Shown: one piece after another, positions 19,032 through 54,890 of the stretch
Position numbering within the stretch: the first letter of the stretch is position 1
How the letters are laid out: each line of letters opens with the position of its first letter
NCBI GenBank assembly: GCA_026197075.1
Contig: JAPHQV010000025.1
Location: forward strand, 62,001-126,000
Direction of reading: 5' to 3'
Length of the DNA stretch: 64,000 nt
Source of the DNA: Gammaproteobacteria bacterium
Lineage (GTDB): Bacteria > Pseudomonadota > Gammaproteobacteria > DSM-19610
Notes under the pieces: model-generated
What the model saw: only the letters and a program-made list of their open reading frames with translations
Database searches by the model: none
What the model was told of the DNA's origin: nothing
Position numbers and translations under genes: made by a program

Positions 19032-19193
19032 GGCGGCCTCCTGGTGGGGATTCACCCGTTTATGGCCGGCATTGTATACAGATTGCCGGACCGTATGCCC
19101 CCAGGCCTGACCGGGATTTGCCGCCGCCTGCTGCGTGCCGGGCTTCTGGTGTACAATCACTGGCCTTTTAGCGCATTTCCAGGGATCCTCGCA

Positions 19194-21108: not shown

Positions 21109-21256
21109 CACCGCAAAGGCGCAAAGGGCGCAGAGAAAAGCAAAATGATGTAATGATGAAGCCTGTGATGAACAGGCCGGTGTGGCAGGTTGCCGAAAAG
21201 TGCCATCATCAATTACAAACCTTATTTTACTTTGCGCCCTTTGCGCCTTTGCGGTG
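21109..21256. repeat. Long-armed inverted repeat, copy B
   Basis: Perfect 23-bp arms at 21109-21131 and 21234-21256, read as CACCGCAAAGGCGCAAAG plus GGCGC and its exact complement, around a 102-bp A+T-rich core. It lies between hslU and the DUF971 gene. The two positions that differ from copy A are changed in both arms, keeping the pairing. Confidence 0.9.
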
Positions 21257-40577: not shown

Positions 40578-40668
40578 CACCGCAAAGGCGCAAAGTACGC
40601 AAAGCACCCACCAAGACCGGAATAATGGGTTTTATAAACCTTACTGAATGAATTCTTTGCGTACTTTG
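40578..40668. repeat. Long-armed inverted repeat, copy C (left part, split by the mobile element)
   Basis: The left arm is intact: 27 bp at 40578-40604, CACCGCAAAGGCGCAAAG followed by TACGCAAAG. The right arm is cut: its first 14 bases are at 40655-40668, and its last 21 bases, including an 8-bp duplicate, are at 54870-54890. Joined at the duplicated GTACTTTG, the arm pairs perfectly over 27 bp with the left arm. The core is 50 bp and A+T-rich. Confidence 0.9.
40661..40668. repeat. Target-site duplication, window-left copy
   Basis: GTACTTTG, directly before the element end. The same octamer is at 54870-54877. Mu-like transposases usually duplicate 5 bp, so 5 of these 8 are probably the true duplication and the rest chance or end sequence. 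Confidence 0.8.
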
Positions 40669-40711
40669 AGCGGCCGCGAGATAAATCGGACCAAAAATGC
40701 AAGATAATTGA
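40669..40711. repeat. Element terminus next to trmL (Mu right-end equivalent)
   Basis: Read inward the end is AGCGGCCGCGAGATAA, with a second GATAA 23 bp further in. The other end, read inward from 54869, has CCGC and GATAA at nearly the same distance and the same 23-bp GATAA spacing, with ATGCA before the second GATAA at both ends. These are likely transposase-binding sites. Confidence 0.6.
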
Positions 40712-40883
40712 ATGGTGGGATTTTCCACCATATGGAAGCGAAATTCCATAATTACTCCATTATTTCCGCCCCCATGTCAGCATATTGACCTAGCTCGCGC
40801 TGTTGGGTAGCGGCTCGGAGCACCTTTATGCCACCGCCTCCCTGCTATACTGACTTGGAAAAATCATAATAAGGAGAGGCTTC

Positions 40884-41225
40884 ATGCGTGCCATCATCAC
40901 CCTATCCCTGTTCCTGGTCTTCATCAGCCAAGCCATCGCATCTGGCGTTTATCGCTGGGTGGATTCAGAGGGCAACACGCATTTCGGAGATCGTCCGCCT
41001 ACGCTAGAGGCCGAACAAATCAAGGCACCAAGCCGGGTGGGTGGCGAGCCCCTCCCGCTGGACCAGGCGACTGACGCCACAATTTCGGAGTCTGCTAAGG
41101 TCCAGGTAGAACTCTGGAAACAGCAGCATAATTACAAAAGGGCGCTGGAAGACCTTGATCGCGCACGTGAGCGCCGCAAGGAGCTAGAAGAACGCGGGCG
41201 CGCCTTTCAGGAAGAGTTCAGGTAA
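40884..41225 (+). CDS. Secreted DUF4124 protein (cargo gene of the element)
   Basis: 113 residues with a signal peptide (about 1-19). The start of the mature part, GVYRWVDSEGNTHFGDRPP, is the DUF4124 signature. The C-terminal 35 residues are a charged helix. It has its own promoter-like TATACT (40846-40851) and a strong AAGGAGAGG ribosome site, and is the only gene on the plus strand besides the repressor. It runs toward the tape measure gene at the element's end, as lysogenic-conversion genes do. Residues 91-112 resemble residues ~667-688 of the tape measure protein (12 of 23 aligned identical). Function unknown. Confidence 0.8.
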   Translation: MRAIITLSLFLVFISQAIASGVYRWVDSEGNTHFGDRPPTLEAEQIKAPSRVGGEPLPLDQATDATISESAKVQVELWKQQHNYKRALEDLDRARERRKELEERGRAFQEEFR

Positions 41226-41251
41226 CAGAGTAACGAGCCTCGCCATTGGGA

Positions 41252-44200
41252 TCATCGTGTCACCCTCCCGCCGCGCTTCAGCGACTCCCGCGCGAACGCC
41301 CGCTTCATATCCTCCGCCGTGTTGGCGGAGGCAGTGACGGGGAAATGCTGACCATCCAGGTACAAGTTGACGGGCGTGCCATCACTGCCGCCACCACCCG
41401 CGACCGACGGCACATCGGGTATGCGTAGGTTGTTGATGATACTGGGCGCGCCCACTGCACCAGCGGCTGCGCCCACCAGGCCGCCGCTGGCGAACTTCGG
41501 TATCAGCAGGCGGTTGATGCCCTCGATGAACGGCAGGCCGTAATGCCGCACCGCCTTCGCCCGCAGCATGTACTCGTTCTTGGAACCCCACAGGAGGATT
41601 GAGTCCGAGGTCTCGGTGCCCGGTCCGTTGATGGGCCCGCCGCTGGCACGGCGTGGTGCGTTCTCTAATAATTTCTCTACGCGAGTATCCGGCGCTCCAG
41701 GCTCCTGTAACACAACCGGCATTATTATGGGGTTCTTCTCCAGCTTATTCTGAAGCAGCTGTCGCAATTCGTCGGCGCTTTTGTCAGCGCTTTCTTTATT
41801 GAATCCTATTTCCAGTTCCTTAAGAAATCCGGCCTTATTAACCAATTCTTGTATTTGAATATTTGCTTCTTCGAGATCCTGAGTGGCCTCAATTTCCTGC
41901 CCTTCACCAATGCCTTCCCATATTTTCCGGACCTCTCCTGCCAAGCGCTTCATTTCCGTTGCAGTTAGAGTGCCCTCCTCACGAGCGCGCCGTAATCGTT
42001 CTTCCAGTAGCTCCGCGCCTTCAGTTGCCGTTCCAAAGTCACCAGCACCCAGAGCATCCTTCGCCCTTATAAACTGGTTGTAGACATTTACGGAATTCTC
42101 GGTAGGTGTCTCTTCCTGTTTCTTGGGCTGGGAAAATTCATCCTCAAAATCTTTCCCGCGTTGTTCAAGTTGCTTGCGGATTTCCTGTGCCTTCCGCAGC
42201 TTTTTGTTTGCATCGTCATATAATTTAAGCTGCTCAGTAAGCTGCTTTTTGATTTTATCGGTCTCGTCTTTTTTGATGTCAGCCACCGTATCTCGGTGAT
42301 CTGCCATTGACTTTTCACGCTGCTCTTGAAGCTTTTTCACTTTACCGAAGGTTTCACGGAAAGTGCGCTCCTGACTGGCAATCTCCAGAAGATCCTTGCT
42401 TATTTCTGCTGTCGGGCCTTCTTGGTCGGCATGCACTCTGCTGGCCGTGTCTCTGAATTTTGTATAGAAATCCCTCGCCGCCTGAAGGCGCTTCATATAG
42501 GCTGCCAATTCATGTGCCGAGAGGCGATCCATTTCGTCGGCAGTGAGTATCTGAAGGTCAGCATACTCTTGCTGTTCCGCCATCATCTCTTGCAGCCGCT
42601 GCTGGTCTGTACGTTTGCGCTCTTCAATCTCTGCCTTGATCTTATTCAGCTTCAGGTGCGCATCCACCACCGCCAGAATCGCCGCCGCCAAGCCGGACAT
42701 CCACAGGCCCGACGACAGCGCCACGGTGCCCACCTTGCCCAGCAGCGTGATCGCTTGCGGCACCGTATTGGCGAGCGCACCCAGGCCGCCACTGGCCAGG
42801 CGCAGGGCGTTCCACACCTGGCGCAGGCCAACCACCCAGGCCGCCTTGGCGGCGACCAGGGCGGTGATGCCCAGCAGGAGGCCCTTCACGGGCGTTGGCA
42901 GCTCGTTCAGACCCTGGGCCACGCGTGTGAGGATCTCCACCAGCGGCGTGCCTGCGGTCACCAGGTCACCGATCTGCAACGACAGCTCTGCCATTGCGGC
43001 GCGGAACTCGCGCATTCGCTGCTCGGGGGTATCCGCCATCTTGGCGTACGCCTCGTCGGTAGCCCCAGCGGCCTGGTGCATGGATTCGATGGAGCCCGCC
43101 AGCGCATCGATGTCCCGCGTCAACGCCAGCACGCCGGTGCGAGCGGTCACGTCCGGCACGATCTGGCGCAGGGTCTCGGGGTCCAGGTTCAGGCGGGCGA
43201 TCTGCTCCAAGGTGCCGAACAGGCCGTTCCAGCTGATGCCCAGCTCGTCCATCTGCTTCTTGGCCTCGGGAACGGGCGTGGACAGGGCGGTGATGGCCGA
43301 TCGAATGGAGGTGGTTGCCACGGCCGTATCGATGCCAGCCTGCGTCATCGAGGCAATGGACGCGGCCAGCTCCTCGAAGGGTACCTTGGCGGCGGCCGCG
43401 ATCGGAAGCGCCTGCCCCAGACTGGCGGAGAGTTGCGGCAGGGTAGTGACGCCGTTCTTCACCGTGTTGAACAGCACGTCGTACACCTGGCCAAGCTGAT
43501 CGATTTCCTTGCCATAGGCGTTGACCACGGCCAGGCCCACGCGGGCGGCACTCTGGGTGTCTGTTACGCCCGCCACCGCGGCCCGGGTCGATTGGCGCAG
43601 CACCTCGATGGCGTTGCCCTCGGGCACCCCGGCAGAGATGATGTCGTACAGCGCCTGGGCAGCGGCGGGCGCGACCACACCCATCTCCACCGCCAGCGCA
43701 CGCACCTCCTGGGTCAGCTCGGCGAAGCGCGCCGGGCTCACATCAATGAGCGTGAATACCTCCGCCATGCGGGTCTGGAACTCGCTCGCCCCACCACCAG
43801 CTGCGGTGAGCATGCGCACCACGCCATAACCTGCGCCAGCGAGGGCCAGCATGCCGATCTTGGCTTGTCCCATCACTTGCACCCACCCGGTTTTCTCCTG
43901 GGTGAGCTTGCGCACGCCTTCCTGCATCTGCACATGGGCGCGGGTGAGTTCCCGGCCGGAGATCTGGCCCGAACGGGCCAGAGTCTGGTAGTCGGTTCGG
44001 AGTTGGCGGATCTCGCTATTGAGGTCACCGAAGGGGCGCATTCCCAATCGCTTCATGGCGTCGCCGATGCGCCGAGACCCGGTGGTAGTCACCCGTTCCA
44101 GGCCCTGGATCTCGCCCCGGTAAGCAGCTGCACCCGCCTTTATGGAGCGCTGAAATTCCTCTGCACGTAGCCGTAATGTAAATTCAACGGTATTGTTCAT
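41252..44200 (-). CDS. Phage tail tape measure protein
   Basis: 982 residues, uninterrupted. Residues ~115-460 form the TP901-type tape measure core (FQTRMAEVFTLIDVSPARFAELTQEV, ALYDIISAGVP, QALPIAAAAKVPFEELAASIASM). Hydrophobic segments follow at about 435-455 and 488-510, then a charged coiled-coil region (about 517-850) and a Gly-rich C-terminus (RRASGGPINGPGTETSDSIL, KFASGGLVGAAAGAVG) typical of Mu-like tape measures. It normally sets tail length and helps DNA ejection. The central coiled-coil part is visibly A+T-richer than both ends, so the gene is mosaic. No tail tube, sheath or baseplate gene accompanies it. Its ATG overlaps the stop of a 93-codon frame (ATGA). Confidence 0.93.
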   Translation of the reverse strand: MNNTVEFTLRLRAEEFQRSIKAGAAAYRGEIQGLERVTTTGSRRIGDAMKRLGMRPFGDLNSEIRQLRTDYQTLARSGQISGRELTRAHVQMQEGVRKLTQEKTGWVQVMGQAKIGMLALAGAGYGVVRMLTAAGGGASEFQTRMAEVFTLIDVSPARFAELTQEVRALAVEMGVVAPAAAQALYDIISAGVPEGNAIEVLRQSTRAAVAGVTDTQSAARVGLAVVNAYGKEIDQLGQVYDVLFNTVKNGVTTLPQLSASLGQALPIAAAAKVPFEELAASIASMTQAGIDTAVATTSIRSAITALSTPVPEAKKQMDELGISWNGLFGTLEQIARLNLDPETLRQIVPDVTARTGVLALTRDIDALAGSIESMHQAAGATDEAYAKMADTPEQRMREFRAAMAELSLQIGDLVTAGTPLVEILTRVAQGLNELPTPVKGLLLGITALVAAKAAWVVGLRQVWNALRLASGGLGALANTVPQAITLLGKVGTVALSSGLWMSGLAAAILAVVDAHLKLNKIKAEIEERKRTDQQRLQEMMAEQQEYADLQILTADEMDRLSAHELAAYMKRLQAARDFYTKFRDTASRVHADQEGPTAEISKDLLEIASQERTFRETFGKVKKLQEQREKSMADHRDTVADIKKDETDKIKKQLTEQLKLYDDANKKLRKAQEIRKQLEQRGKDFEDEFSQPKKQEETPTENSVNVYNQFIRAKDALGAGDFGTATEGAELLEERLRRAREEGTLTATEMKRLAGEVRKIWEGIGEGQEIEATQDLEEANIQIQELVNKAGFLKELEIGFNKESADKSADELRQLLQNKLEKNPIIMPVVLQEPGAPDTRVEKLLENAPRRASGGPINGPGTETSDSILLWGSKNEYMLRAKAVRHYGLPFIEGINRLLIPKFASGGLVGAAAGAVGAPSIINNLRIPDVPSVAGGGGSDGTPVNLYLDGQHFPVTASANTAEDMKRAFARESLKRGGRVTR

Positions 44201-44478
44201 GGGGCCCCTCGGTCTAGGGTTGGGTGCATCTTTTGATGATGATTAGATAGTTGGAATGTGCTACTGAATTCCGCCATTAATTCGGATAAAAAAAGCGGCG
44301 GCGCACTCGGCCCATCGAGTATGCCGCCGCAAAAATCCACGGATAGGGGCTGCCAACAGGAGTTTGGCAGGGGATTACCGCAGTCTCCCTGGTGGCGTTG
44401 TACTACAGGCTCTATCCCGGCCACCTTGCGAGACAGAGCCACCCGTGAAGGCACGATTTCTGAGGAGCACGTCATCAT
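44197..44478 (-). CDS. Small ORF spanning a terminator, coupled at both ends
   Basis: 93 residues, no family recognised (MMTCSSEIVPSRVALSRKVA at the start). Its ATG overlaps the upstream gene's stop (ATGA) and its stop overlaps the tape measure ATG (ATGA). An intrinsic terminator lies inside it and is read as GGILDGPSAPPLFLSE. The exact coupling on both sides argues that it is translated, though composition alone is not convincing. The gene preceding a tape measure is often a tail assembly chaperone; no sequence evidence supports that here. Confidence 0.45.
   Translation of the reverse strand: MMTCSSEIVPSRVALSRKVAGIEPVVQRHQGDCGNPLPNSCWQPLSVDFCGGILDGPSAPPLFLSELMAEFSSTFQLSNHHQKMHPTLDRGAP
44288..44330 (-). 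terminator. Intrinsic terminator upstream of the tape measure gene (T2)
   Basis: Minus-strand stem GCGGCGGC (44330-44323) with its complement (44302-44295), an inner stem ACTCG/CGAGT and a 6-base loop, followed by seven T (44294-44288). It would end late transcripts about 90 bases before the tape measure gene unless anti-terminated or covered by ribosomes. Confidence 0.88.
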
Positions 44479-45116
44479 GGGATCATTGAAGGTGAAATGC
44501 CCAATTGCTCGAACAAGAGCCTTTCAGCATCAATTTGCTGAGCAAATTCATTCTTCCCGTCCGTGCGGTTTGATCTAGCCCGCTTGGCGGAAAACAGTAC
44601 GCCTCGCTTCTTATCGTGCTGCGGAACACTCTCGCAAGCCGGTAAATGGAATGCTGGTATTAGCAGCTCGGGCGTTGCGCGCGTCGTGACCATTTTGCTG
44701 GAAACTCGTTTACTGGAAATCCTTTTCTGATCAAGACTGCAAGACATGGATTCTAGCGCAATAATCCGTTTGTAATTATTGGCAACCTCTAACGCCGCTC
44801 GCGTGTACTGTTCGCACGCGAACTCCATTTCTGACAGGAGAAGCGCCTTCATTACGTCTGGAGATGCCAGCAGGAGATGAGCAAGTTCAGATTCCAACTC
44901 AGACAAGTATCGTTCAAGCCCCTCACCCTCCTTCAACTCCGCCGGAGTCAGGGAAGACGGAGAGCTATTGACGAGCTTTTTATGGCCTTCATAAGCAGCA
45001 CGCAAGCGATTCACCCTGGGTCGCAGTACATCCATGCGCGCCTGGTGATCCAGTACGCTTTTCACGCTGCCGTGCTTGGCTGTTGGTGTACTTCCCTTTT
45101 CCTGTTGAGTGGTCAT
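44475..45116 (-). CDS. Hypothetical phage protein with helical N-terminal half
   Basis: 213 residues, no recognised family. Residues ~30-130 are predicted helical (VLRPRVNRLRAAYEGHKKLV, GLERYLSELESELAHLL). The stretch CEQYTRAALEVANNYKRIIALE resembles TYSSYLDNANKVIADMKRIAAL in the next gene upstream (45269-46054), so the two may be distant paralogues. The C-terminal third is basic. It starts directly after the stop of a 37-codon ORF (TAGATG) and ends overlapping the next frame (ATGA). Its place between mor and the tape measure is where capsid genes would be expected. Confidence 0.6.
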   Translation of the reverse strand: MTTQQEKGSTPTAKHGSVKSVLDHQARMDVLRPRVNRLRAAYEGHKKLVNSSPSSLTPAELKEGEGLERYLSELESELAHLLLASPDVMKALLLSEMEFACEQYTRAALEVANNYKRIIALESMSCSLDQKRISSKRVSSKMVTTRATPELLIPAFHLPACESVPQHDKKRGVLFSAKRARSNRTDGKNEFAQQIDAERLLFEQLGISPSMIP

Positions 45117-45131
45117 CTAGGTGTCCAAGGC
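45114..45131. repeat. 18-bp direct repeat, copy 1
   Basis: CATCTAGGTGTCCAAGGC. It recurs with one change at 45228-45245. On the minus strand each copy reads GCCTTGGAC, A or G, CCTAG, then ATG: a stop directly followed by a start codon. The repeats bound a 114-bp (38-codon) cassette holding terminator T1. Confidence 0.85.
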
Positions 45132-45230
45132 TAGTAAAGACTGTGTATAAAAAGGCGGTGGCGCCCCAGCAGGCCCCGCGCCCCCCGGCTCGGGTTTAAT
45201 AAGCGCCACCGCACAAACCGGGTGTTTCAT
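45117..45230 (-). CDS. 37-residue ORF spanning terminator T1
   Basis: Starts at ATG 45230-45228, directly after a TAG in another frame, and stops with TAG abutting the next gene's ATG. The product is MKHPVCAVALIKPEPGGAGP and 17 more residues ending LLALDT. The terminator arms are read as codons (AVALI... and GAPPPF). No family recognised. It could be a leader peptide or only a frame preserved by the duplication that created the cassette. Confidence 0.35.
   Translation of the reverse strand: MKHPVCAVALIKPEPGGAGPAGAPPPFYTQSLLALDT
45149..45212 (-). terminator. Intrinsic terminator T1
   Basis: Minus-strand stem GCGGTGGCGC (45212-45203) with its complement (45164-45155), a long G+C-rich 38-base loop, then C and five T (45153-45149). 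It follows the 45269-46054 gene and lies inside the 37-codon ORF. Confidence 0.75.
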
Positions 45231-45245
45231 CTAGGCGTCCAAGGC
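45228..45245. repeat. 18-bp direct repeat, copy 2
   Basis: CATCTAGGCGTCCAAGGC, 17 of 18 bases identical to 45114-45131, at the other edge of the T1 cassette. Confidence 0.85.
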
Positions 45246-45268
45246 CAGGAACGGGTTCGGATAATCGA

Positions 45269-46054
45269 CTAATTCAGGTCAAATATCCCTGAATCCCGCA
45301 ACCGCTCCCGCTCAGCTTCGACCGCTTGATCGAGTTCGTTCAAACCACCAATTCCACATGCATATAACGAATTTGAACAGAACAATCGACCGCTGGCCGG
45401 ATCGTGTGCATTGATCTCACCGTCATGCGGTAAATTAAACATCGGCAGCAATGTGCGACGCCATTGATACGCGGTAAATGGATACGAGTTATCTCCGGTG
45501 ACTTCTCCGAATATCACATCAAGTGCTGCGATCCGTTTCATGTCGGCGATAACCTTGTTTGCGTTATCCAGATAAGATGAGTACGTCGCAGCCGCTTCAT
45601 CAATTACAAACCGCCTGACAATATCCGGCGTCAACTGTTCCATGCGCTCCAGCTCTTGCTCGGCCTGTGCCTTTCTGCGCCGCAGCCCTTCAACCACCTG
45701 CTCAGCACGCAAATAATCGCTGGCTTCGCCCGCACCTTGTGCGTCAGTATAACCACCCATCGCGCTACTGATCTTGCGATCGATTTCCGCAATGTCGGCA
45801 TCTCGTTTATTTCCGAGTGCAAGGTCGGCCAGAGCATCCTCTCTTTCGCGACGCAATGTGCAGACCTGTGCTGCTACAGTCTCATCCGCAGACTCAAGTG
45901 CGCCAAGCTTTTCTTCCTGCTCAGCGAGCATTTGAACGAGCTTGGAAACTGCTAACTGCTGGCTTGATAGCGCCTCACGATGCTCCTGGAGCTCGCTCCT
46001 GGCCGACTTTACTTGCTTTTCTTTTCCTCTTTTCATGACGCTCATAATGCTCAT
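45269..46054 (-). CDS. Hypothetical coiled-coil protein
   Basis: 261 residues. The first ~130 residues are a charged coiled coil (MLAEQEEKLGALESADETVA). The rest is mixed, with TYSSYLDNANKVIADMKRIAAL near 175 and SGRLFCSNSLYACGIGGLNEL near 225. No family recognised. The start has a GAGG ribosome site in a spacer that is nearly identical to the one before the shorter copy at 46159-46473. The C-terminus may be frameshifted: beyond the stop another frame reads DYPNPFLALDA and then stops next to the 18-bp repeat. A structural or regulatory phage role is possible but unsupported. Confidence 0.6.
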   Translation of the reverse strand: MSIMSVMKRGKEKQVKSARSELQEHREALSSQQLAVSKLVQMLAEQEEKLGALESADETVAAQVCTLRREREDALADLALGNKRDADIAEIDRKISSAMGGYTDAQGAGEASDYLRAEQVVEGLRRRKAQAEQELERMEQLTPDIVRRFVIDEAAATYSSYLDNANKVIADMKRIAALDVIFGEVTGDNSYPFTAYQWRRTLLPMFNLPHDGEINAHDPASGRLFCSNSLYACGIGGLNELDQAVEAERERLRDSGIFDLN

Positions 46055-46605
46055 ATTGGCCTCTCAAAATGGTGGCAATTTCTGCCTCACTGGATGTGCT
46101 CGTGACAGTTCACATGGGCGCTTGTTTCATGATCTCCAGAATTCGGTAAACACTCCTTTCAGTGAGTCTGCATTCCCGAGCAATTGATCTTTCGGGCGAT
46201 TCCCGCAAGGGCGGCGTCTCGGTTTTTTCCGAGTGAAAGGGCAGCCACGGTGGCGTCTCGGTTTTTTCCTAGCGAAAGGACAGCAAGGACATCCTCTCTT
46301 GCGCGACGCAATACGCCTACCTGAGCCGCGACAGCATCATCCGCAGCTTCAAGCGCGCCAAGCTTTTCTTCCTGCTCAGCGAGCATTTGATTTGATAGAG
46401 CTTCACGGTGTTCCTGGGCCTCGCCCTTGGCTGATTTCACTTGCTTTGTTTTTTCACTTTTCATGATGCTCATATTGACCTCTCAAAATGGTGGCAATTT
46501 CTGCCTCACTGGGTGTGCTCGTGACAGTTCACATGGGCGCTTGTTTCATGATCTCCAGAATTCGGTAAACACTCCTTTCCGTGAGTCCGCACTTCCGAGC
46601 AATCC
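45765..46605. repeat. Tandem duplication covering the end of mor and the start of the coiled-coil gene
   Basis: Two copies of about 420 bp (45765-46185 and 46186-46605). The non-coding part and mor tail (46045-46185 versus 46463-46605) are almost identical, while the coiled-coil coding parts differ at many sites and by small indels. The right copy continues into the intact mor gene; the left copy has only mor's last ~25 codons. Confidence 0.85.
46159..46473 (-). pseudogene. Truncated copy of the coiled-coil gene
   Basis: 104 codons. Residues 1-96 match the N-terminus of the 45269-46054 product (shared MLAEQEEKLGALE, AAQV, EHREALS), with a 9-residue deletion and an internal 11-residue duplication (ALSLGKNRDA twice). 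After the duplication joint the frame enters the mor remnant out of frame (NCSGMQTH) and stops. It keeps its ribosome site and could still yield a short coiled-coil peptide, but it is best seen as a duplication by-product. Confidence 0.7.
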
Positions 46606-46933
46606 TCGCAATAGACCACCCGCGACCGACCCATTCCATGATTTGATCATTTCGACGTCGGCGGTGAAGATTCATGAGTCGCGGGACCTCCAACTCTTCC
46701 CCACCCATTTCACGCGACAAAATACTTGCTACTTGAACGCCAATACAGGTAGATAATGCGCTGTTTGGCGTCGGTCGCGTCGGAACATACACCCTGGTCC
46801 CACCGTAGTGGTGCATCAGCGAAAAAATCGCCTCTGATCCAATAAGTGTGGCGAGGTGCTTCATGCGTGGACTCAGCAGCTCAACCAGGCTCTCATCCTC
46901 TATCTTCGAGGAAGCTCCAAAGGTCGGTTTCAT
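46529..46933 (-). CDS. mor: Mor-type middle transcription activator
   Basis: 134 residues matching the Mor/C activator family of Mu-like phages: an N-terminal dimerisation part (LLSPRMKHLATLIGSEAIFSLMHHYGG, TRVYVPTRP) and a C-terminal helix-turn-helix (QIMEWVGRGWSIARIARKCGLTERSVYRIL). In Mu, Mor turns on the middle promoter, leading to late gene expression. A perfect palindrome lies ~40 bp upstream of the start. The element thus retains the switch to late transcription despite lacking most late genes. Confidence 0.88.
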   Translation of the reverse strand: MKPTFGASSKIEDESLVELLSPRMKHLATLIGSEAIFSLMHHYGGTRVYVPTRPTPNSALSTCIGVQVASILSREMGGEELEVPRLMNLHRRRRNDQIMEWVGRGWSIARIARKCGLTERSVYRILEIMKQAPM

Positions 46934-46970
46934 ACGCTGAAGTATGTCAGTGTAAAGGGGGCTCGGTTAT

Positions 46971-46986
46971 CCTGACATGTGTCAGG
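46971..46986. promoter_or_regulatory. Palindromic operator candidate upstream of mor
   Basis: CCTGACATGTGTCAGG, a perfect 16-bp palindrome apart from its centre, 38-53 bp upstream of the mor start. A related half-site ATGTCAG is at about 46944-46950. It could bind a dimeric repressor or activator controlling middle transcription. Confidence 0.5.
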
Positions 46987-47069
46987 GTACGGGGCGGGTG
47001 CGGGGTAGACCTGACAGCAGCGGAATAGACCTGGCGAAGCATGCCTGCCAATTCAATCATCCCTTCCCG

Positions 47070-47477
47070 TCAGATGGCGTTTCTTCGGTTGACCATCGCC
47101 TTAAGCGCTGTTAGTACGTTCCCGGCCACGCGTGCATCCAAGAACCGCAGCGATGATATTTTGAACTTGTTTTCGATCCATCGCTCGAGTCCTTCATCCT
47201 GGCCGTCGGTATACTGCTTCCAAAGCCCTCGGATGTACTCAATCTGCGCCGGGGTTGCCATTCCAGATCGATGGCCATAGCTGCGCTGCTGGCGCAGCGT
47301 AAGAAATCCTAAGGATTCGAAGCGAACCAGAACCCTTTCGAACCCATCTTCATCCAAGTGACGTGCGCTATCGACCCCAGCCGCCTCATGAAGGATGGAT
47401 CGATATTCAGATTCCGAGAGCCCCATCTGTTGCTTCGCTACATGGATGAGCCCCAGCTTTTCCTTCGATATGGTCAT
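47070..47477 (-). CDS. gemA: GemA-like protein (Mu gp16, DUF1018)
   Basis: 135 residues of the DUF1018/GemA family of Mu-like phages: EKLGLIHVAKQQMGLSESEYRSILHEAAG, then HLDEDGFERVLVRFESLGF and ATPAQIEYIRGLWKQYTDG. In Mu, GemA modulates host gene expression and DNA topology early in infection. The ATG at 47477 has GCGGAG 8 bases upstream; two earlier in-frame starts are less well placed. It lies upstream of mor in the same direction. Confidence 0.88.
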   Translation of the reverse strand: MTISKEKLGLIHVAKQQMGLSESEYRSILHEAAGVDSARHLDEDGFERVLVRFESLGFLTLRQQRSYGHRSGMATPAQIEYIRGLWKQYTDGQDEGLERWIENKFKISSLRFLDARVAGNVLTALKAMVNRRNAI

Positions 47478-47586
47478 TATCATATCTCCGCGCAAGGGTG
47501 GACACATTTAGGGGGAGGCTCTGCCGAAGAGTTGTGTGGGGCGGGGACATGCATCATGTCCCCGTCAAATCACACACCTTCAGACA

Positions 47587-48183
47587 TTAGGCAGCCTCCG
47601 CATCGCCTCCGGGAGTACTTGAGGAGATTTCTTCATACCGTGCCAGCATCGCTGAATCGAGATCTTCAACAGCATCTCTCGCAAGCGATATTAGTCGTCG
47701 CACACGGTCCCGCGCTTCTGGTGCGCTTATAAGCAAATCGCCGTGATCTTCGGCAAGTTGGTCGGCAGCCCAAATCATGGACATGGTTTCTTTCACATTG
47801 ATATAGATCTTGTCGGCAAAATACTCCCATTCCTGCACGCGTCCTGATTCATCCTGTGGTATGTGTAGCCCACCTTTCAGGGTCATACCTCTAATTGAAC
47901 CAGCTTGCATCATGATGGAGTCGCCGATATCCACGGCCTGATCCTTCGCCACATTGGTCAGGTTATGAAATCTCTCCCACGCTTCGTCCTCATCAATCGT
48001 CAAATCACCTCCGCCATCGGCCAGCATGTCCAAAGCCCATAACGTGGAAATAAGCAACCTCATCTCCCAGTGAATCTCATCGATCAGGAGCCTCCATAGT
48101 TGACAGGGGTCCTTTTCCACTCCGCTTGAGTGAGAGAGACGTTTCATAGTCGCGTCAACCTTCTTTACCCTTGTACCTTTCAT
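47587..48183 (-). CDS. Hypothetical protein with internal repeat
   Basis: 198 residues, no recognised family. Two related segments of ~55 residues: MRLLISTLWALDMLADGGGD... (about 41-92) and VKETMSMIWAADQLAEDHGD... (about 131-183), each a helix followed by acidic loop and a second helix (LTNVAKDQAVDIGDSIM, LISLARDAVEDLDSAM). This points to an internal duplication. It lies between the ATPase and gemA in the early region; a short GGGGACAT hairpin (47543-47563) follows it. Confidence 0.6.
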   Translation of the reverse strand: MKGTRVKKVDATMKRLSHSSGVEKDPCQLWRLLIDEIHWEMRLLISTLWALDMLADGGGDLTIDEDEAWERFHNLTNVAKDQAVDIGDSIMMQAGSIRGMTLKGGLHIPQDESGRVQEWEYFADKIYINVKETMSMIWAADQLAEDHGDLLISAPEARDRVRRLISLARDAVEDLDSAMLARYEEISSSTPGGDAEAA

Positions 48184-48553
48184 ATTTCATGAGTCCTCGT
48201 TGCAATTTTTCGTTGTTCCTGCATGCGGGTGGTTACACGTCACACGATGACAGGTCGAATCGGTCCTGGTGCAATCGGCTGGCGATCCAACCGAGACGCG
48301 ATGGTTGTCCACCAGCGCACTGCCGGGGCAAAAATGACCCGAATCCCTCCCCACCCATCCAACCACGCACCTCCAGAACGCCCGGCGCATTGCAAAGGCG
48401 TTTAACTCGTCCGTAGAGTGACTTTCTGTCCCTCACCGAGGGGGCAGGCGCGGTTTTGGTGCTGCACAGCCCTGAGGGGCTCACAGGAGCCCCCCAGCTT
48501 GAGCGATACCCGGGCAGAAATTGTGTATATTTCATCTCGGCAGCCCGCATGGT
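48184..48553 (-). other. 370-bp spacer with structured sequence, possible small ORF
   Basis: Between the ATPase gene and the 47587 gene. A 105-codon minus-strand frame (48233-48550) fills most of it, but its composition (Arg, Ser, Gly, Cys rich) is unlike a typical protein. The part at 48440-48495 can form stacked hairpins (GGGGGCTCC...; GAGCCCCTCAGGGCT; CCCCTCGGTGAGGG). It may be an RNA element or a leader. No family recognised. Confidence 0.35.
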
Positions 48554-49780
48554 TCAGACGCCCCTTACGATTTCACTGCTGACCCGGGCCGATCCCACCT
48601 CAGCGGCCAGGTTGAGGCACTTCACCACCATATTGTTCACGACCAGGGGGTAGTGCATGCCGATCCCCTCCTTGGCACCCCGCATGTGCGTCAGCCGGGC
48701 ACGGATCGCATCAAAGGCGTCTTTTTCGAAGACATCATCCAGCCCTTTATTCAGCCGGTTCAGCTTCAGCTTCAGGTAGCCCTCCAGATCACCCCCCAGC
48801 GGCAGCAGCTCGGCAATCTCGCAGCGGCGGATTACTTCCCGTGCCTGCCAGTTTTGCCGCTCGTCCAGTTTGCCCTTCAGCTCGGGCTGACCAATCAGGA
48901 TGATCGACAGGAGCTTCCGGAAACCATCTTCAAGTTCGTAGAAGCGCTTCAGGTATTTCAATGTGGGAACGGCCAGGTCATGAGCCTCCTCAATCAGCAG
49001 GACATGGTTATTGCCTGCCCGGCTGGACCCTGTGAGCAGTTGCTCGATCTGACGGGCCTTGGCCTCCAGCGACCGCCGGGGCCGCTCCTGGGAGAGATCG
49101 GCAATGATCGCATCGCAGATAGACCCCGCAGTCAATCGCTCCTTGTCGATGATGCGCGGCTGGATGCAGGTGATGGGGTGCTCTTCGCGCCGTATGCGAT
49201 CAATCAGGTCGCGGCGCAGCACGGTCTTGCCTGCCCCTGACTCGCCGATCACCGCAAGAAACCCGCCATGCTTTGCCGTCGTGAACATGGCCTCCCTGAC
49301 ATATCGATGCTCATCGGACAGGAATACATCCTCGGGCCCTTGCACGTCGTCCTGAAAAGGGTCGCGAAACAGCGTAAAATGTCGTCTTGCATTCTGTGTT
49401 AACATCTCATTCTCCGGTAGTTGAATTACGTCATCGATCGGAGCGGTGGCCCGACCAGTCCGCGTCTGACTCTGCCAGGAGGTGCGCGGTTGGTACGGGC
49501 CATCGTCTTTCTCGAATGCCACTTCTATATCCTCCTCAGATGCGCCTCTCTCCCGTAGAAACGATATGAACGCTTCGCGCAGCTGCGAGGTATCCTGACG
49601 GGCGGGCCAGATATCCCGGGTCAGCATCAGCGTGACGGCGGATTCGTTCAGTCCGAGCGTTCGCGCCAGGGCGACCTGCGGCACCCGGAGTACGACAAGA
49701 AGCTTCTTGGCCTTTAGCGGCGTATGAGGCCGCCCCCGGCGCTCTTCCCAGGTAGTTGACTTGCGTTGCGTGAGTGACAT
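48554..49780 (-). CDS. Transposition ATPase, MuB/TnpB-like
   Basis: 408 residues. An N-terminal helix-turn-helix (about 33-58, VPQVALARTLGLNESAVTLML) precedes an AAA+ domain of the ExeA/TniB type: Walker A IGESGAGKT (178-186), Walker B HVLLIEEAHDL and the sensor region SIILIGQPEL. MuB-like ATPases bind target DNA and activate the transposase. It lies 12 bp downstream of the transposase gene. The HTH-plus-AAA layout matches the B subunit of BcepMu-like phages. Confidence 0.9.
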   Translation of the reverse strand: MSLTQRKSTTWEERRGRPHTPLKAKKLLVVLRVPQVALARTLGLNESAVTLMLTRDIWPARQDTSQLREAFISFLRERGASEEDIEVAFEKDDGPYQPRTSWQSQTRTGRATAPIDDVIQLPENEMLTQNARRHFTLFRDPFQDDVQGPEDVFLSDEHRYVREAMFTTAKHGGFLAVIGESGAGKTVLRRDLIDRIRREEHPITCIQPRIIDKERLTAGSICDAIIADLSQERPRRSLEAKARQIEQLLTGSSRAGNNHVLLIEEAHDLAVPTLKYLKRFYELEDGFRKLLSIILIGQPELKGKLDERQNWQAREVIRRCEIAELLPLGGDLEGYLKLKLNRLNKGLDDVFEKDAFDAIRARLTHMRGAKEGIGMHYPLVVNNMVVKCLNLAAEVGSARVSSEIVRGV

Positions 49781-49792
49781 GCATATACCCTC

Positions 49793-51547
49793 CTAGTTCG
49801 CTATTAATACTGATGGACCTGGTGTCACGGAAACTCCGGTCAGCCAAGCCATCACCTCTTCGATTGCGCTCTCGGCAATACCGTCCGGGTAGCGCTCGCG
49901 AATCCGTTGATTTTCGTCCGCCGTGAGTGGGCGGCCCAGCATTGAGACAAGCCGCTTCATGGCTTCAATTAGTGGCAGTGGGCGCAGCTCAACGCTGCAC
50001 TGCCCTGGCATGTCTAGCTTGGTGCCTGGGCGATTCATGAAATAGGCAGCCGTCTCAGGGACAAGATAACCGATGGGATCAATGCGCCCATCAAATGCCG
50101 GTTCTCGCTTGACGCGCTTTTTATCTGCCTCTTTCTGGGTATCTACGTTATAGGCCGCCTTCAGCAAGCCCTTTCGATTTCGGTCTGCGCGGGTGTCGGG
50201 ATTTGATTTGTAGCCTTGGCCGAAGACAGGCGCGTTGACGAAAAATCCGGCTGAATCGGTTTCTTCCGGCACGCACTCGTATATCACTTCTCGCCGGTCT
50301 GCATCATTGAATCGGACATCGATATTCGGATAACGATAGGGGTTCACGCTCACACGAACAGTGTCGCCAACCATGACTCCAGGGATATGTTTTACTGAGT
50401 AGGCTTGTGAGCGCTGGCCTCTAAGCGCATAGCTGACCATGAGGTTCGGCCTGACTGTGCGGTCTTCGATGCCCTCTGCCAGCAACTGCTCGCACACCTC
50501 ACGCGGAGGGCATAGTCGCAACTGTTCTTTCGAAATCGTCTGCCAGAGCCCATACCGTGACGACCCATGACGGCTATGTGGCTTTTGTGCGTTATAATGG
50601 CGTGTCCATATCCTGGCCGCTTCGTTCAGGTGGTCAAGGTCGGTGACTTTCATCGTAAACAAGCGACCTTCAAAGCCGCATTCGATGATGTCTTGCGCAC
50701 CCTCGACCTGGCCTTTTGCCCTGGGGTTTCCAGGCATGTGCGCCCAGTGCTTGACCCCCAGCAATCCTAGAAATCCCTTGATCAGCTGGCTTTGGTTCGC
50801 GCTCCCTGCGTCCCATACGAGCATTTCAGGGACCCCCCGCAAGGGTTCCTGGGGATGATCGCGACCAGCGAATGCATCAACCAGGAATTCGAATATCGTC
50901 TCCCTATCTTCGCCAGGGCGGAGGAAATAGCGCACGTAGAACGCGCCGCTGTAGTGATCGGTGACCACGTACCGCATTACGCGGTCATTCGACACCTTTG
51001 CAAAGTTATTTGGCTTGTTCTTATAGAACCGCTCTTTATCCATGACCGCGAGGCCGCCATTATCCAGGTAATACAACACGCAAACCGAGGCATCGAACTG
51101 CCATACATGATTCGGGTGCAAGGATCGCATGGAGATATGCGGCGAAGGCTGTTTCAGCTGCTTGGGATGTAGCCCATACTCCTCCAGGGAGCGCAGCATT
51201 GTGGACGGCGAAGCATCCGTAAAAATCAGTTTATTTGCTCGCGCGATATCCATCGCATCTGCGACGCACAAGAGCTGCTTTCCCGTGGCGCGCGATGAAC
51301 CGATTAGCAACCCTGACACGGCCTGGGCTTCCTCGAATGTAACTTTGCATTTGCCAGTATCTGACCGGGGCTTCCGACCCGACGACCACCCCACTGATTT
51401 CAGGTGTGAATACAGCGTATTCCGTGACACACCAAGCAACCGGGTGGCGGTATCGACCAGGGCTCCCTTCTCGCTATGCGGCACGCATTCCAGCCGCAGC
51501 GCCAGATCGTGCAGGTATGCCTTGTCGATTTGCTTCTTTCGCCCCAT
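49793..51547 (-). CDS. DDE transposase, Mu A/Tn552-like
   Basis: 584 residues. An N-terminal helix-turn-helix (TRLLGVSRNTLYSHLKSVGW) is followed by an rve integrase core with the DDE triad D152 (WQFDAS), D246 (VWDAGS) and E282 (NPRAKGQVEGAQ), then a beta-barrel-like C-domain (MVSYALRGQRSQAYSVKHIP). The layout is that of Mu transposase and the Tn552/IS1604 family. The ATG at 51547, 8 bp after the upstream stop, is preferred to upstream in-frame starts that overlap the preceding gene. All catalytic residues are present, so it may be active. Confidence 0.93.
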   Translation of the reverse strand: MGRKKQIDKAYLHDLALRLECVPHSEKGALVDTATRLLGVSRNTLYSHLKSVGWSSGRKPRSDTGKCKVTFEEAQAVSGLLIGSSRATGKQLLCVADAMDIARANKLIFTDASPSTMLRSLEEYGLHPKQLKQPSPHISMRSLHPNHVWQFDASVCVLYYLDNGGLAVMDKERFYKNKPNNFAKVSNDRVMRYVVTDHYSGAFYVRYFLRPGEDRETIFEFLVDAFAGRDHPQEPLRGVPEMLVWDAGSANQSQLIKGFLGLLGVKHWAHMPGNPRAKGQVEGAQDIIECGFEGRLFTMKVTDLDHLNEAARIWTRHYNAQKPHSRHGSSRYGLWQTISKEQLRLCPPREVCEQLLAEGIEDRTVRPNLMVSYALRGQRSQAYSVKHIPGVMVGDTVRVSVNPYRYPNIDVRFNDADRREVIYECVPEETDSAGFFVNAPVFGQGYKSNPDTRADRNRKGLLKAAYNVDTQKEADKKRVKREPAFDGRIDPIGYLVPETAAYFMNRPGTKLDMPGQCSVELRPLPLIEAMKRLVSMLGRPLTADENQRIRERYPDGIAESAIEEVMAWLTGVSVTPGPSVLIAN

Positions 51548-51554
51548 AGGATGA

Positions 51555-52520
51555 TTACTCCGCCTCAGCTCCTGTGGCGTTTTGTATCCATGAATCATCG
51601 ATATCCAGATCCACCGTGGGCAGGGAATACTGTTGCTGGAGGCGGTCCAGGGCAATCCTGATTCGCGCAACACCTTGGGCACAGGAGTGTCGTAGCTCAC
51701 GGGGAGCATCCTCCCAGCCGAGCACCTCGCCAATTACGCGGCTTGGGACATGCAGAGACTGAATGGCGTCACGCACACCCTGATCGAGTTTTTCGGACAG
51801 ATCCCGTGCCAGGTCATCCGTACCCAAGGATTCACGCCTGTGTATCAGCCTTTCCAGCTCGTCGATTTTTTCAGCCCGTTTCTGGATGACTTTTCGGGAG
51901 GCATCAAGGTCAGCGGCCAGGTCATCGGCCCGACGTTCGAGCGCCTGACGTTCACGTGCATGGCGTTCATCTAGTCTCTCGATCAGATCCTCGATCGCCT
52001 CTTTGTCGCCCAGCCTGACCGCTTCGCCGTTGATGACCATTTGCCGATCATCGTCCGGCAGCTTCCGCAGTTTCCGCAGCGACCGGTAGCCGATCCCGGC
52101 GCGAGTCATGGCGTCAAGGGCCTCCTCGCCAAACTCGCGAAGGTTCTGTAGCTGCTCGTCGATCTTGCGCCGGGAATATCCCAGGGCCTCGCAGAATCCT
52201 TCCCAAGTGGCGACCGTCGCCAGTTCCCCGCCATCCGGTGTAGTTATCTTTTTCCCCGCAAGCGATTGATAAAGCTTATTTTCCTTGATGTAGGCCAGAT
52301 CCGACAAACTGGCGACGGTCGCCAGTTTTGCAATCCCCTGAGCCATTTGAATGCGTCCAACCAGCTGATTGGCAAGATCGCGGTTCTCGGTGTAGCCGGA
52401 GACCCTGTACTCCTCTTCCGCCTGGAGGAGTTGCTGCCGGTCAGCCTGATTTGCAGCCAGGTCAGCAGCCTCGACCTGGTGATGCAGCTCCTGTGCTTGC
52501 TGTCTCGTTTTCCCGCTCAT
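51555..52520 (-). CDS. Phage DNA-binding/coiled-coil protein of the early operon
   Basis: 321 residues, family not firmly recognised. A central part with helix-turn-helix character (WEGFCEALGYSRRKIDEQL, GYRSLRKLRKLPDDDRQMVI) is followed by a long coiled coil (about 175-235, ERQALERRADDLAADLDASR). The layout recalls ParB/KfrA-like DNA-binding proteins found just ahead of transposase genes in BcepMu-like phages. It overlaps the next upstream gene by 4 bp. A role in transposition control or DNA organisation is inference. Confidence 0.65.
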   Translation of the reverse strand: MSGKTRQQAQELHHQVEAADLAANQADRQQLLQAEEEYRVSGYTENRDLANQLVGRIQMAQGIAKLATVASLSDLAYIKENKLYQSLAGKKITTPDGGELATVATWEGFCEALGYSRRKIDEQLQNLREFGEEALDAMTRAGIGYRSLRKLRKLPDDDRQMVINGEAVRLGDKEAIEDLIERLDERHARERQALERRADDLAADLDASRKVIQKRAEKIDELERLIHRRESLGTDDLARDLSEKLDQGVRDAIQSLHVPSRVIGEVLGWEDAPRELRHSCAQGVARIRIALDRLQQQYSLPTVDLDIDDSWIQNATGAEAE

Positions 52521-52864
52521 GCGCGCAACTCCTTGCCAGTGACCGCCATATACTCATTGCGGACCTCGTGTATCCGCCGGAGCGCGTGCTGTTCATAGGC
52601 CGTGGCGATCCGGGCAAGCCGGGTACTTACCCGCCAGCGCACTGCTTTGGTCCCGGGCTCATGAATCTGCACCACCCACCCCAAAGCCAACCAGGTATGA
52701 AGGGCACGCCACACCGTAGTGACAGGGATTCCGGTGGACTCTGCGATTTCCGCATCCGTCCTACCGGCAAAATCGTCTTCGAAAAGCGCCTCGAATACCT
52801 CGGTGGCGCGCTGGAGGGACTTGGTGAGCCCCGGCTTATTGTGTTTACCGTTTGTGCGATGCAC
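52517..52864 (-). CDS. Winged-helix DNA-binding protein (IclR-type HTH)
   Basis: 115 residues. A winged helix at about 15-70: LQRATEVFEALFEDD, then GRTDAEIAESTGIPVTTVWRAL as the recognition helix and a wing (WVVQIHEPGTKAVRWRVS). It resembles the DNA-binding domain of IclR regulators without a ligand domain. It overlaps both neighbours, so the early genes are one operon. Confidence 0.7.
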   Translation of the reverse strand: MHRTNGKHNKPGLTKSLQRATEVFEALFEDDFAGRTDAEIAESTGIPVTTVWRALHTWLALGWVVQIHEPGTKAVRWRVSTRLARIATAYEQHALRRIHEVRNEYMAVTGKELRA

Positions 52865-53258
52865 GCTGCTTCTCCTTCCGATGCTTGGTTTGCAGCCCTA
52901 GCTGGGCGCGAAGTCTCGTAACGTAGCGGTGAATCGAGCTTTTTGTTGGGGAATCCTCTACCCCAAACCGCTCGACACAGAGCGCCGCCAACTTGGTATA
53001 GGGAATAGCGATGCGCTCGTTAATGAATTTCTTGATTTCCGGGTTTCGTTCGATTTTGGAATGGAACCCGGGCACGCGAATCAAGGAGACAGGATCAATC
53101 TCCGGGGAGATGGCCAAACGACTCCATTCCACCTCAGGTAACGCCGAGAGAACACGCCTCAGCGCGCAATTGAGCACCAGCACGGCATAGGTAGGGGACA
53201 GGTCGGAAAGGCTATCAGTGATCGCAGCCGCTCGTTGTTGGAGGTTGATTTTGTCCAT
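52845..53258 (-). CDS. Phage early protein with C-terminal HTH
   Basis: 137 residues, no firm family. The N-terminal half is helical (LSDLSPTYAVLVLNCALRRVL). The C-terminal part IPYTKLAALCVERFGVEDSPTKSSIHRYVTRLRAQLG has helix-turn-helix character and a basic tail. It overlaps the preceding gene by one base and the following by 20 bp in the early operon. Confidence 0.6.
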   Translation of the reverse strand: MDKINLQQRAAAITDSLSDLSPTYAVLVLNCALRRVLSALPEVEWSRLAISPEIDPVSLIRVPGFHSKIERNPEIKKFINERIAIPYTKLAALCVERFGVEDSPTKSSIHRYVTRLRAQLGLQTKHRKEKQRASHKR

Positions 53259-53734
53259 CAGGCATCCTCCTGGAAGAGATCGAGCTCGGGGTTATTAAGC
53301 TTGATAACGTTTTCGTGGTGCCCGGCGATCTGTGCCATCACTCCACTGAGGGCCTGGAGGGTGTCGCCGCTGTCGGCTTCGCCACGATAGAAGCAGGCGA
53401 GGAGTTCCACGGCCTCGCTGAATCCCGTATGCAGCTCAAGGAGCGAGTTGTCAGCAACTGGCCGTCCGGCCGGAATGTCGATGAGCAGCTTGTGCGCGCT
53501 ATGCGCTATATGGTTTGTGAGGTAGTGAGTTCCGCATGCGAACTCAAACGCGCGGATTTTTTCGCTGGGCATAGACCCTTTCGCCAGCCACTTATAGATG
53601 GCCCATTCCGTCGTTCCGACCAAATCGGCCACACGGGCGACGGAGCGACGGTGCCTCAATCTGGCATGATCAAGGCAGAGGCGGATCGCGTCGCCTTGCG
53701 TGCGAGGGGTGGCGTGCGGTTTCGGCCTACTCAT
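53258..53734 (-). CDS. Phage regulatory protein with HTH
   Basis: 158 residues. The N-terminus carries a CII-like helix-turn-helix (VARVADLVGTTEWAIYKWLAKGSMPSEKIRAFEFACGTHYLTNHIA). The C-terminal part is helical and acidic. The ATG at 53734 is preferred over a TTG at 53749. Early operon position suggests a regulator; target unknown. Confidence 0.6.
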   Translation of the reverse strand: MSRPKPHATPRTQGDAIRLCLDHARLRHRRSVARVADLVGTTEWAIYKWLAKGSMPSEKIRAFEFACGTHYLTNHIAHSAHKLLIDIPAGRPVADNSLLELHTGFSEAVELLACFYRGEADSGDTLQALSGVMAQIAGHHENVIKLNNPELDLFQEDA

Positions 53735-53812
53735 CGGGGTCGATTCCAAAAATTGTCGGCGCCTGCCGTATACGTCCTGGTGGCAGCGTTGTACGGTTGC
53801 GCCATGACGCGA

Positions 53813-54037
53813 TTACGCACAGAGCGAAACTTTGGACACGCCAGCATCGTGAACAGCTTGACTGCGCACCTTTCGACCCTCTGGGCCGTTCCATGCCCCC
53901 ATCAATGCAGCTTTTACATTGGTAGGGTTCCACCCCTGGGCACGGCACCAGGCGGTGAAGGTGGTTCCCTTGCGGATGAACCCGGCTCTAACCTCCAAAT
54001 ACAGGTCCGCCGATGGTTTGATGTTGTTGATTTCCAT
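53813..54037 (-). CDS. Ner-like small DNA-binding protein
   Basis: 74 residues, first gene of the early operon, divergent from the repressor, which is the place of ner in Mu. KGTTFTAWCRAQGWNPTNVKAALMGAWNGPEGRKVRSQAV fits a short helix-turn-helix. By analogy it would shut down early and repressor transcription. Family match is by position and general form, not clear sequence identity. Confidence 0.6.
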   Translation of the reverse strand: MEINNIKPSADLYLEVRAGFIRKGTTFTAWCRAQGWNPTNVKAALMGAWNGPEGRKVRSQAVHDAGVSKVSLCA

Positions 54038-54115
54038 AGACCCTCGCTTCAGACTCGCTTAGTGATTTAACACATCCAAACGCACTACGGATTAAAATAA
54101 GCTGGAAACATCGTA
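54038..54115. promoter_or_regulatory. Divergent early/repressor control region
   Basis: 78 bp between the Ner-like and repressor genes. It holds two CTCGCTT repeats 11 bp apart (54043-54049, 54054-54060), one helical turn, and an A+T-rich stretch (ATTAAAATAAG, from 54091) suited to a promoter for the repressor. The repeats are likely operator sites. Confidence 0.5.
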
Positions 54116-54772
54116 ATGTCAATTGAAAATACGGCGTTTAGATCTGAATTTGGCGACAGGCTGAAAGCGGCCAGAAAAATCATGGGGTTGAATCAGGCTG
54201 AATTTGCCACACGGATCGGTGTGGCCCGGGACACGTATGGTCGTTATGAGCGGGGAGAGTTATCTCCCGCAACAGAGGTTTTTGCGTTGATTGCCCGTGA
54301 ATTGTCGGATATTACCGACGCAAATTGGCTGCTTTTCGGCGGCGACCAGGTACACGCAGAGAAAATTGAGACGAAATTCTTCTGCCAGGTGCTGGCAAGT
54401 CTCGACGATGAAAGCAGCCCACTTAAGGGGCGGAATTCTGTTGATTTCGGATATTTTGCGGCAGTGATCTACAACCGGGTTATGGCTTTCTTCCTTCCTT
54501 ACGGCTTAGAGCCAGATCAAGCGCGCTGGGCTGAAGAAATGCGAATAGCATTAGCCAAGCTCGATGCAATCCTCTCTGCCCAATGGGTATGGTCTCTTGA
54601 GCACGTCCCCCACTCTTCCAGTATAAGCAGTGAGGTAATGCAGGATCCCAAATTCCTCGAACTCATTGAGAAAGCGAAACGACTTGGTGATGGCATAAAC
54701 CCTGATATTGCAAAATTGAAATGGGGGCCTGGTGGCGAGCTAGAGCGGTTGTTTATTGACGCTTTGATTTGA
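54116..54772 (+). CDS. CI-like repressor with XRE-type HTH
   Basis: 218 residues. The helix-turn-helix at 10-60 (FGDRLKAARKIMGLNQAEFATRIGVARDTYGRYERGELSPATEVF) is of the HTH_3 type. The C-terminal part has no visible S24 autoprotease motif, so SOS-driven self-cleavage is not evident. It is the only early gene on the plus strand and lies next to the element end, as c does in Mu. Likely keeps the element silent. Confidence 0.85.
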   Translation: MSIENTAFRSEFGDRLKAARKIMGLNQAEFATRIGVARDTYGRYERGELSPATEVFALIARELSDITDANWLLFGGDQVHAEKIETKFFCQVLASLDDESSPLKGRNSVDFGYFAAVIYNRVMAFFLPYGLEPDQARWAEEMRIALAKLDAILSAQWVWSLEHVPHSSSISSEVMQDPKFLELIEKAKRLGDGINPDIAKLKWGPGGELERLFIDALI

Positions 54773-54826
54773 AATCCGTGTTTCATTTTCTCCCCCACGG
54801 CTCCCCGTTAAGTTTCGGTAAATCCC

Positions 54827-54869
54827 GTTTATCCTGCATCCTCCGGTGCGCTTATCATGCGGGGGTGTA
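54827..54869. repeat. Element terminus next to the repressor (Mu left-end equivalent)
   Basis: Read inward from 54869 it is TACACCCCCGCATGATAA, then a second GATAA 23 bp on, preceded by ATGCAG. It is an imperfect inverted match to the other end (40669-40711). The outermost bases are not a canonical TG...CA pair, so the exact end is uncertain by a few bases. Confidence 0.55.
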
Positions 54870-54890
54870 GTACTTTGCGCCTTTGCGGTG
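54870..54890. repeat. Target-site duplication (window-right copy) and remainder of inverted repeat C
   Basis: GTACTTTG (54870-54877) repeats 40661-40668. It continues as CGCCTTTGCGGTG, the missing end of the right arm of copy C. Confidence 0.85.

Follow-up and report, generated by a model that had tools for sequence, protein, structure and literature searches.

Phage satellites of the SaPI, PICI, cf-PICI and P4 types are about 10–16 kb in size and integrate by means of site-specific integrases. Most of them have no terminase-portal set of their own, and the capsid is redirected by scaffold mimics or capsid homologues: CpmB of SaPI1 reproduces the capsid-binding motif found at the C-terminus of the helper scaffold and, in competing with that scaffold, changes capsid size (PMC5644958), and SaPIbov5 uses a capsid homologue (Ccm) instead of a scaffold mimic (PMC8569155). 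The PLE satellites of Vibrio cholerae combine defence and piracy and contribute their own tape measure protein (TMP), TAC and baseplate hub BhuB to chimeric tails built with helper parts; deletion of the PLE tmp gene lowers transduction by 96–99.9%, and putative tmp genes have been reported in cf-PICIs (PMC12987554, the latter in its Ext. Data Fig. 10). PLE rely on phage ICP1 and have not been described as transposable elements of the Mu type. Among transposable phages, B3 (Beetrevirus) is 38 kb long; its late region is complete and lies on the repressor side, and Mor occupies the left end. Mini-Mu, a laboratory construct without selection, is a short Mu-type element mobilised by phage functions. 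We found no description of a Mu-type or transposable satellite in the literature covered, which largely excluded subscription journals and preprints.

The window analysed here, a 64,000-nt stretch of a gammaproteobacterial contig, contains a Mu-type element similar in size to the SaPI, PICI, cf-PICI and P4 satellites (Table 1). We consider it, with a probability of roughly three in four, to be a member of a family of 12–15.5-kb transposable phage satellites, which would exchange some components of the helper's head and tail for their own, as PLE do with TMP. The family of short elements is not previously described; we infer that its members depend on a helper and are packaged by it, and the particles in which they travel are most likely produced for the most part by some other phage.

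Table 1. Features of the window element (window coordinates) and the other complete short elements (lengths)
Feature	Position or length	Strand	Basis and remarks
Whole element	40667..54869	.	14,203 bp; ends and target-site duplication, empty site in close relative
Target-site duplication GTACTT, TMP side	40661..40666	.	6-bp duplications in 9/9 complete elements, window included
Target-site duplication GTACTT, repressor side	54870..54875	.	Matches TMP-side copy
TMP-side terminus TGAGCGGCCGCGAGATAAAT	40667..40686	+	Family consensus TGTAGCGCnnCAcGATAATT
Repressor-side terminus TACACCCCCGCATGATAAG	54851..54869	-	Relatives: TG...GATAA
DUF4124 gene, accessory, between TMP and element end	40884..41225	+	PF13511 7e-12
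TMP, 982 aa, siphophage type	41252..44200	-	PF10145 3e-31, phrog_991 2e-50
ORF Z, 93 aa, reality unsure	44197..44478	-	4-base overlaps with both Y and TMP
Y, 213 aa, X2 paralogue	44475..45116	-	phmmer: X2 5e-11, L100 X2 1.5e-9
X2, 261 aa coiled-coil protein, hallmark of the window's branch of short elements	45269..46054	-	HMM
X1, truncated tandem duplicate of X2	46159..46473	-	83–95% direct repeats; X2 HMM 3e-5
Mor-type late activator	46529..46933	-	PF08765 7e-14, phrog_836 2e-29
GemA	47070..47507	-	PF06252 7e-21; 52% identical to L041 GemA
Early ORF, 198 aa, no family match (Pfam, PHROGs)	47587..48183	-	ORF list
Transposition ATPase B	48554..49780	-	AAA_22; phrog_296 1e-62; 64% identical to L041 B
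Transposase A (DDE), B3-like	49793..51733	-	rve; phrog_310 4e-92
DUF3102-type early protein	51555..52520	-	phrog_4623 1e-68
IclR-HTH regulator	52517..52864	-	PF09339 4e-7, phrog_1368
orf4, small early ORF	52845..53258	-	Kept in relatives
CII-like activator	53258..53749	-	phrog_101 8e-18
Ner-like regulator	53813..54037	-	phrog_15281 4e-19, phrog_925 1e-6
Repressor, Xre/HTH_3	54116..54772	+	PF01381 2e-10
L101, complete short element	12,323 bp		TG..CA, 6-bp duplication; inside GGDEF gene
L104, complete short element	12,869 bp		TG..CA, 6-bp duplication
L184, complete short element	12,993 bp		TG..CA, 6-bp duplication
L041 (Sedimenticola), complete short element	15,465 bp		TG..CA, 6-bp duplication
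L044 (Neptuniibacter), complete short element	14,173 bp		TG..CA, 6-bp duplication
L015, complete short element	14,018 bp		TG..CA, 6-bp duplication
L046 (Vibrio cincinnatiensis), complete short element	12,359 bp		TG..CA, 6-bp duplication
L196, complete short element	11,822 bp		TG..CA, 6-bp duplication

The first-pass annotation had described a complete early region (repressor, Ner-like regulator, A and B) followed by GemA and Mor, and all of these were recovered by Pfam and PHROGs, by which the genes were named. The early region is intact; the alignments show no variation at D214, D308 and E344 in A or in the B Walker motifs. As in Mu/B3-like phages, an A+B transposition module stands under repressor/Ner control, and the likeness to B3 extends to homologous A (37% identity), B, CII-like and GemA proteins, a Mor gene, an early module divergent from the repressor, and transposition itself. 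In contrast to SaPI, PICI, cf-PICI and P4 satellites, the short elements use a DDE transposase and an ATPase and insert at many sites; no site-specific integrase was found among the window element ORFs, which include a DDE transposase instead. Mu/B3-like phages also bring their own terminase, portal, capsid and complete tail, but the window element does not: terminase, portal, capsid, tube and baseplate genes were not found in it with Pfam and PHROGs, and the full-length TMP gene is its only virion gene, as had been read from the sequence. The three ORFs between Mor and TMP that had seemed unfamiliar are present, although they now resolve into X2, its paralogue Y, a truncated duplicate X1, and the small ORF Z, for which neither Pfam nor PHROGs gave a family match. 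The start of X2 is duplicated in tandem (46042–46184 and 46461–46603, 95% over 143 nt), which leaves X1 as a truncated ORF.

Because members of the family start with TG and have 6-bp duplications, we moved the left end of the element from 40669 to 40667; the right end, 54869, was kept. The TMP-side end reads TGAGCGGCCGCGAGATAA and the repressor-side end TACACCCCCGCATGATAA, where TA takes the place of the TG of the relatives; despite this TA, GATAA is kept at the same positions in the ends of the window element. Sequences common to short-element ends are TGTnnnnnnnnAAGATAAT and TGTAGCGCnnCAcGATAATT. Since all nine complete elements, the window's included, show a 6-bp duplication, that of the window is not a chance repeat. 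Judged from such ends, the B3-like Mu-type module (repressor, Ner, A, B, GemA and Mor) inserts these elements with 6-bp target duplications. At the site itself, the element interrupts a host palindromic repeat that is intact elsewhere in the window. In the closest relative genome, of the same genus, both flanks (89% and 95% identical) are present and the element is missing. Copies of the host repeat, which is intergenic and has arms reading CGCAAAGGCGCAAAG spaced about 100–120 bp, lie at 6476–6602, 21112–21253 and, split by the element, 40581–40604 with 54873–54887.

Relatives were found by searching with A and B and then reading the gene surroundings. This search for the same architecture in other genomes, which the first-pass annotation had proposed, yielded a lineage of short elements in several genera, with 24 distinct transposases from elements of window-like architecture in gammaproteobacteria and viral metagenome contigs (Sedimenticola L041, Neptuniibacter L044, IMG/VR L101–L108 and G962 L184, and also Vibrio, Marinobacter and Motilimonas). 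Labels of short elements were assigned by reading gene content, and the contigs L007, L008, L011 and L043 are incomplete. The shared order is repressor, Ner, CII-like, small ORF, IclR-HTH, DUF3102, A, B and Mor, after which a few morphogenesis genes follow on the same strand up to the element end. Besides the window element, eight complete elements of 11.8–15.5 kb have TG...CA ends and perfect 6-bp duplications. Viral contigs were also scanned with nothing but the R-end sequence, and hence irrespective of late-gene content. Of the nine contigs returned, eight hold short elements or parts of such elements and one, without phage-module context, is an apparent chance match; no full phage was among them. 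The exact R-end pattern was found in none of 369 class genomes, and within the window's own family and order, A was found in the window copy only.

Downstream of Mor, the annotated gene maps show a small, interchangeable block of virion genes that most often ends with TMP by the terminus. TMP genes, of types that differ among the branches, occur in seven of the eight complete relatives and overall in the window element, L041, L044, L046, L101, L103, L104, L105, L108, L184, L193, L196, L007 and L014; L015 and L045 have none. The accompanying genes vary: in L101 and L104, TMP is joined by a phrog_1005/Phage_cap_E capsid and a Mu gpP-type hub; in L103, by the same capsid and hub types and a TAC-like ORF; in L184, by capsid and TAC; in L193 and L196, by a Mu gpT capsid and TAC; in L041, by a gpI protease and TAC; and in the window, by X2/Y. 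Compared by gene type rather than by alignment, the sets TAC+TMP (L041, L184) and hub, TAC-like ORF and TMP (L103) resemble those of PLE; of these genes, the window element has TMP only. Terminase, portal, sheath, fibre and lysis genes were found in no complete short element, and the complete relatives have no unannotated ORF of terminase size except the AAA cargo of L015, although a strongly diverged virion gene could escape single-sequence phmmer. The short elements form a conserved lineage with its own regulation and mobility and incomplete virion genes, as in satellites. L015 carries defence-like cargo (L015:13344-15704 and 17885-19066), in which an AAA ATPase matches PDC-S06, a family of candidate defence genes (E 2e-180), and a DUF2971 protein matches PDC-S31.

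A short locus would also result if a Mu/B3-like prophage, once full-length, had lost late genes through deletions and retained TMP by accident. The truncated duplicate X1, the TA terminus and the failure to find a helper in the window genome fit such decay, as do the different late-gene subsets in relatives, of which L007 has only part of a capsid gene. At the level of the family, however, ends, ORFs and dN/dS are intact, and the one TA terminus and one truncated duplicate ORF are features of the window copy. Decay does not readily account for nine elements of 11.8–15.5 kb with both ends intact and target-site duplications, nor for tree clades composed solely of short elements. In a tree of A built from 138 transposases, one all-short clade has 13 members (support 98) and another has eight; the window A falls in a 14-row clade (support 98) with the eight-row all-short clade and five other loci, including full phages of B3 layout. 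The short/full label changes four times on this tree versus 22.4 times in shuffles (0/500); shortness is therefore inherited and old. One member, L100, has a B 62% identical to that of the window and an A from another clade, so that modules are exchanged and A and B reassort.

Selection on the retained genes points the same way. Between the short elements L101 and L104, dN/dS is 0.052 for TMP, 0.046 for capsid, 0.084 for hub, 0.077 for A and 0.073 for B. By this estimate, strong purifying selection acts on the three virion genes (0.05–0.08), at a level like that of A and B. A lineage of uniform size with intact ends and selected structural genes also rules out that every relative is full length. 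The late block, moreover, is on the wrong side for a B3-type deletion. In contrast to B3, the window element lacks late genes on the repressor side and has TMP beyond Mor, and the full phages closest in A (L006, L087) follow the B3 plan, with late genes diverging on the repressor side and Mor at the far end. Their late genes lie across the early module, so the TMP block is not a leftover but was acquired by capture or rearrangement; this gene order leads us to reject a simple history of two deletions around TMP, which the first-pass annotation had named as the minimum for a random remnant. The satellite proposal made there is partly supported, in that relatives are not all full length and the nearest relative has an empty site.

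The short elements also have genes of their own, X2/Y and small coil genes, which count against accidental decay. The X2 HMM matches only X2 and Y of the window, L041, L100 and L107/L108; a second coiled-coil family occurs in other short elements, the window having the X2 family only. In a control set of 15,854 ORFs, drawn from full phages and other contigs, neither X2/Y nor this second family had a match, and peptide patterns from X2 alone or from the X2 pair alignment returned nothing in viral contigs. Taken together, we regard a decayed prophage as unlikely.

The retained structural proteins could instead act against phages, the element being an unpackaged transposon whose TMP, scaffold-tail and capsid proteins are decoys that spoil superinfecting phages. 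Structural subsets could indeed poison assembly, L015 carries the candidate defence genes PDC-S06 and PDC-S31, and PLE join defence to piracy (PMC12987554), so this reading and that of a satellite are not mutually exclusive. As the sole function, we find it quite improbable, since the repressor-Ner-GemA-Mor circuitry with the A/B module is of the inducible replicon type, and TMP and capsid are under purifying selection as if used in assembly. Transposition alone would account for the ends and target duplications if the elements were plain transposons with phage-derived passengers, never packaged and without effect on phages; the recurring choice of TMP, capsid and scaffold, and the selection on them, would then be unexplained, and we consider this highly implausible. 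Mini-Mu is likewise an imperfect parallel, because the natural short elements keep A/B and a dedicated morphogenesis block.

Returning to the satellite reading, the TMP of the window element offers a hint of its likely partner. It is 66% identical over residues 1–975 of 982 to the TMP of L003, a 39.5-kb phage with terminase, portal, capsid and major tail genes, and its GC content is mostly 0.64–0.67, versus about 0.55 in the early module; on these two grounds, it looks recently captured from a siphophage. Between the two TMP genes dN/dS is 0.28, so purifying selection is weaker here than among members of the L101 group. The likely helper of the window copy would be a B3/D3112-type siphophage such as L003. 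No resident helper was detected in the window genome, in which neither a Mu-type portal nor, in a search that had no positive control, an L003-type terminase was found; a Mu portal was found in only one of six host genomes tested. With one terminus reading TA for TG and no resident helper found, the window copy may no longer move.

We propose that, upon derepression or induction, A and B would amplify the element by transposition and a Mor-class activator would switch on the downstream block, possibly linking the element to a transposable phage that is infecting or has been induced alongside it. Terminase, portal, neck, tube and tip would come from a Mu- or B3-like phage, either co-resident or infecting, and would package and deliver the element. 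The element TMP would replace the helper part, giving chimeric tails, and elsewhere in the family TAC, hub, capsid or scaffold-tail proteins would do so; the extra capsid or scaffold-tail proteins of the relatives may redirect the head, probably to a size fitting about 14 kb.

We give even odds to a broader proposal, namely that satellites moving by Mu-type replicative transposition are widespread and form chimeric virions, with their own TMP and an extra capsid or multi-headed scaffold-tail protein per lineage, and that satellite DNA with host DNA on either side is delivered by the Mu-like phages of the host. If true, such elements would be transposing, generalized-transduction satellites, and because Mu-type packaging takes host DNA, they could be efficient gene movers. 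The satellites compared here (P4, PICI, cf-PICI and PLE) are of the island type; a transposing family would differ from them and would show that satellites arose from, or captured, a phage transposition engine. It would also extend the recently discovered use of a satellite-encoded tape measure to siphophage and Mu-like helpers.

Small proteins with a recurring QIAG(N/R)D-type motif, without a Pfam match for those scanned, adjoin the repressor in several relatives (L101:699-1160, L015:6027-6494, L041:6139-6564 and L044:6294-6713); the window element, whose end comes directly after the repressor, has none.

Full-length Mu-like gpI proteins have one C-terminal copy of a scaffold motif of the kind LxxEELAxCKxLGIxPEEYLK, and this gpI motif occurs two to three times in short proteins of L041, L009, L100, L108 and L176 (E 1e-16 to 3e-8). 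A copy seen by eye at the C-terminus of the window Y was below significance in the HMM and was rejected. In Motilimonas cestriensis, whose genome holds both a short element and a complete Mu-like prophage, the gpT proteins of the two are 72% identical, and their A and B proteins are unrelated. The prophage lies on G978 contig C55 at 37001–87000 (L199–L201) and has a siphophage-type tail; the short element is L045. With multiplied scaffold-binding motifs and spare capsid genes at hand, the control of capsid size can be tested directly, and this species, with a short element and a complete Mu-like prophage, provides a natural test pair. L176, a short element on a 13,174-bp viral contig, belongs to a different transposase clade, adjoins a kdsB-like host gene, and carries a triple scaffold-motif protein together with gpG and a gpP-type hub; it may represent a separate emergence of this life style.
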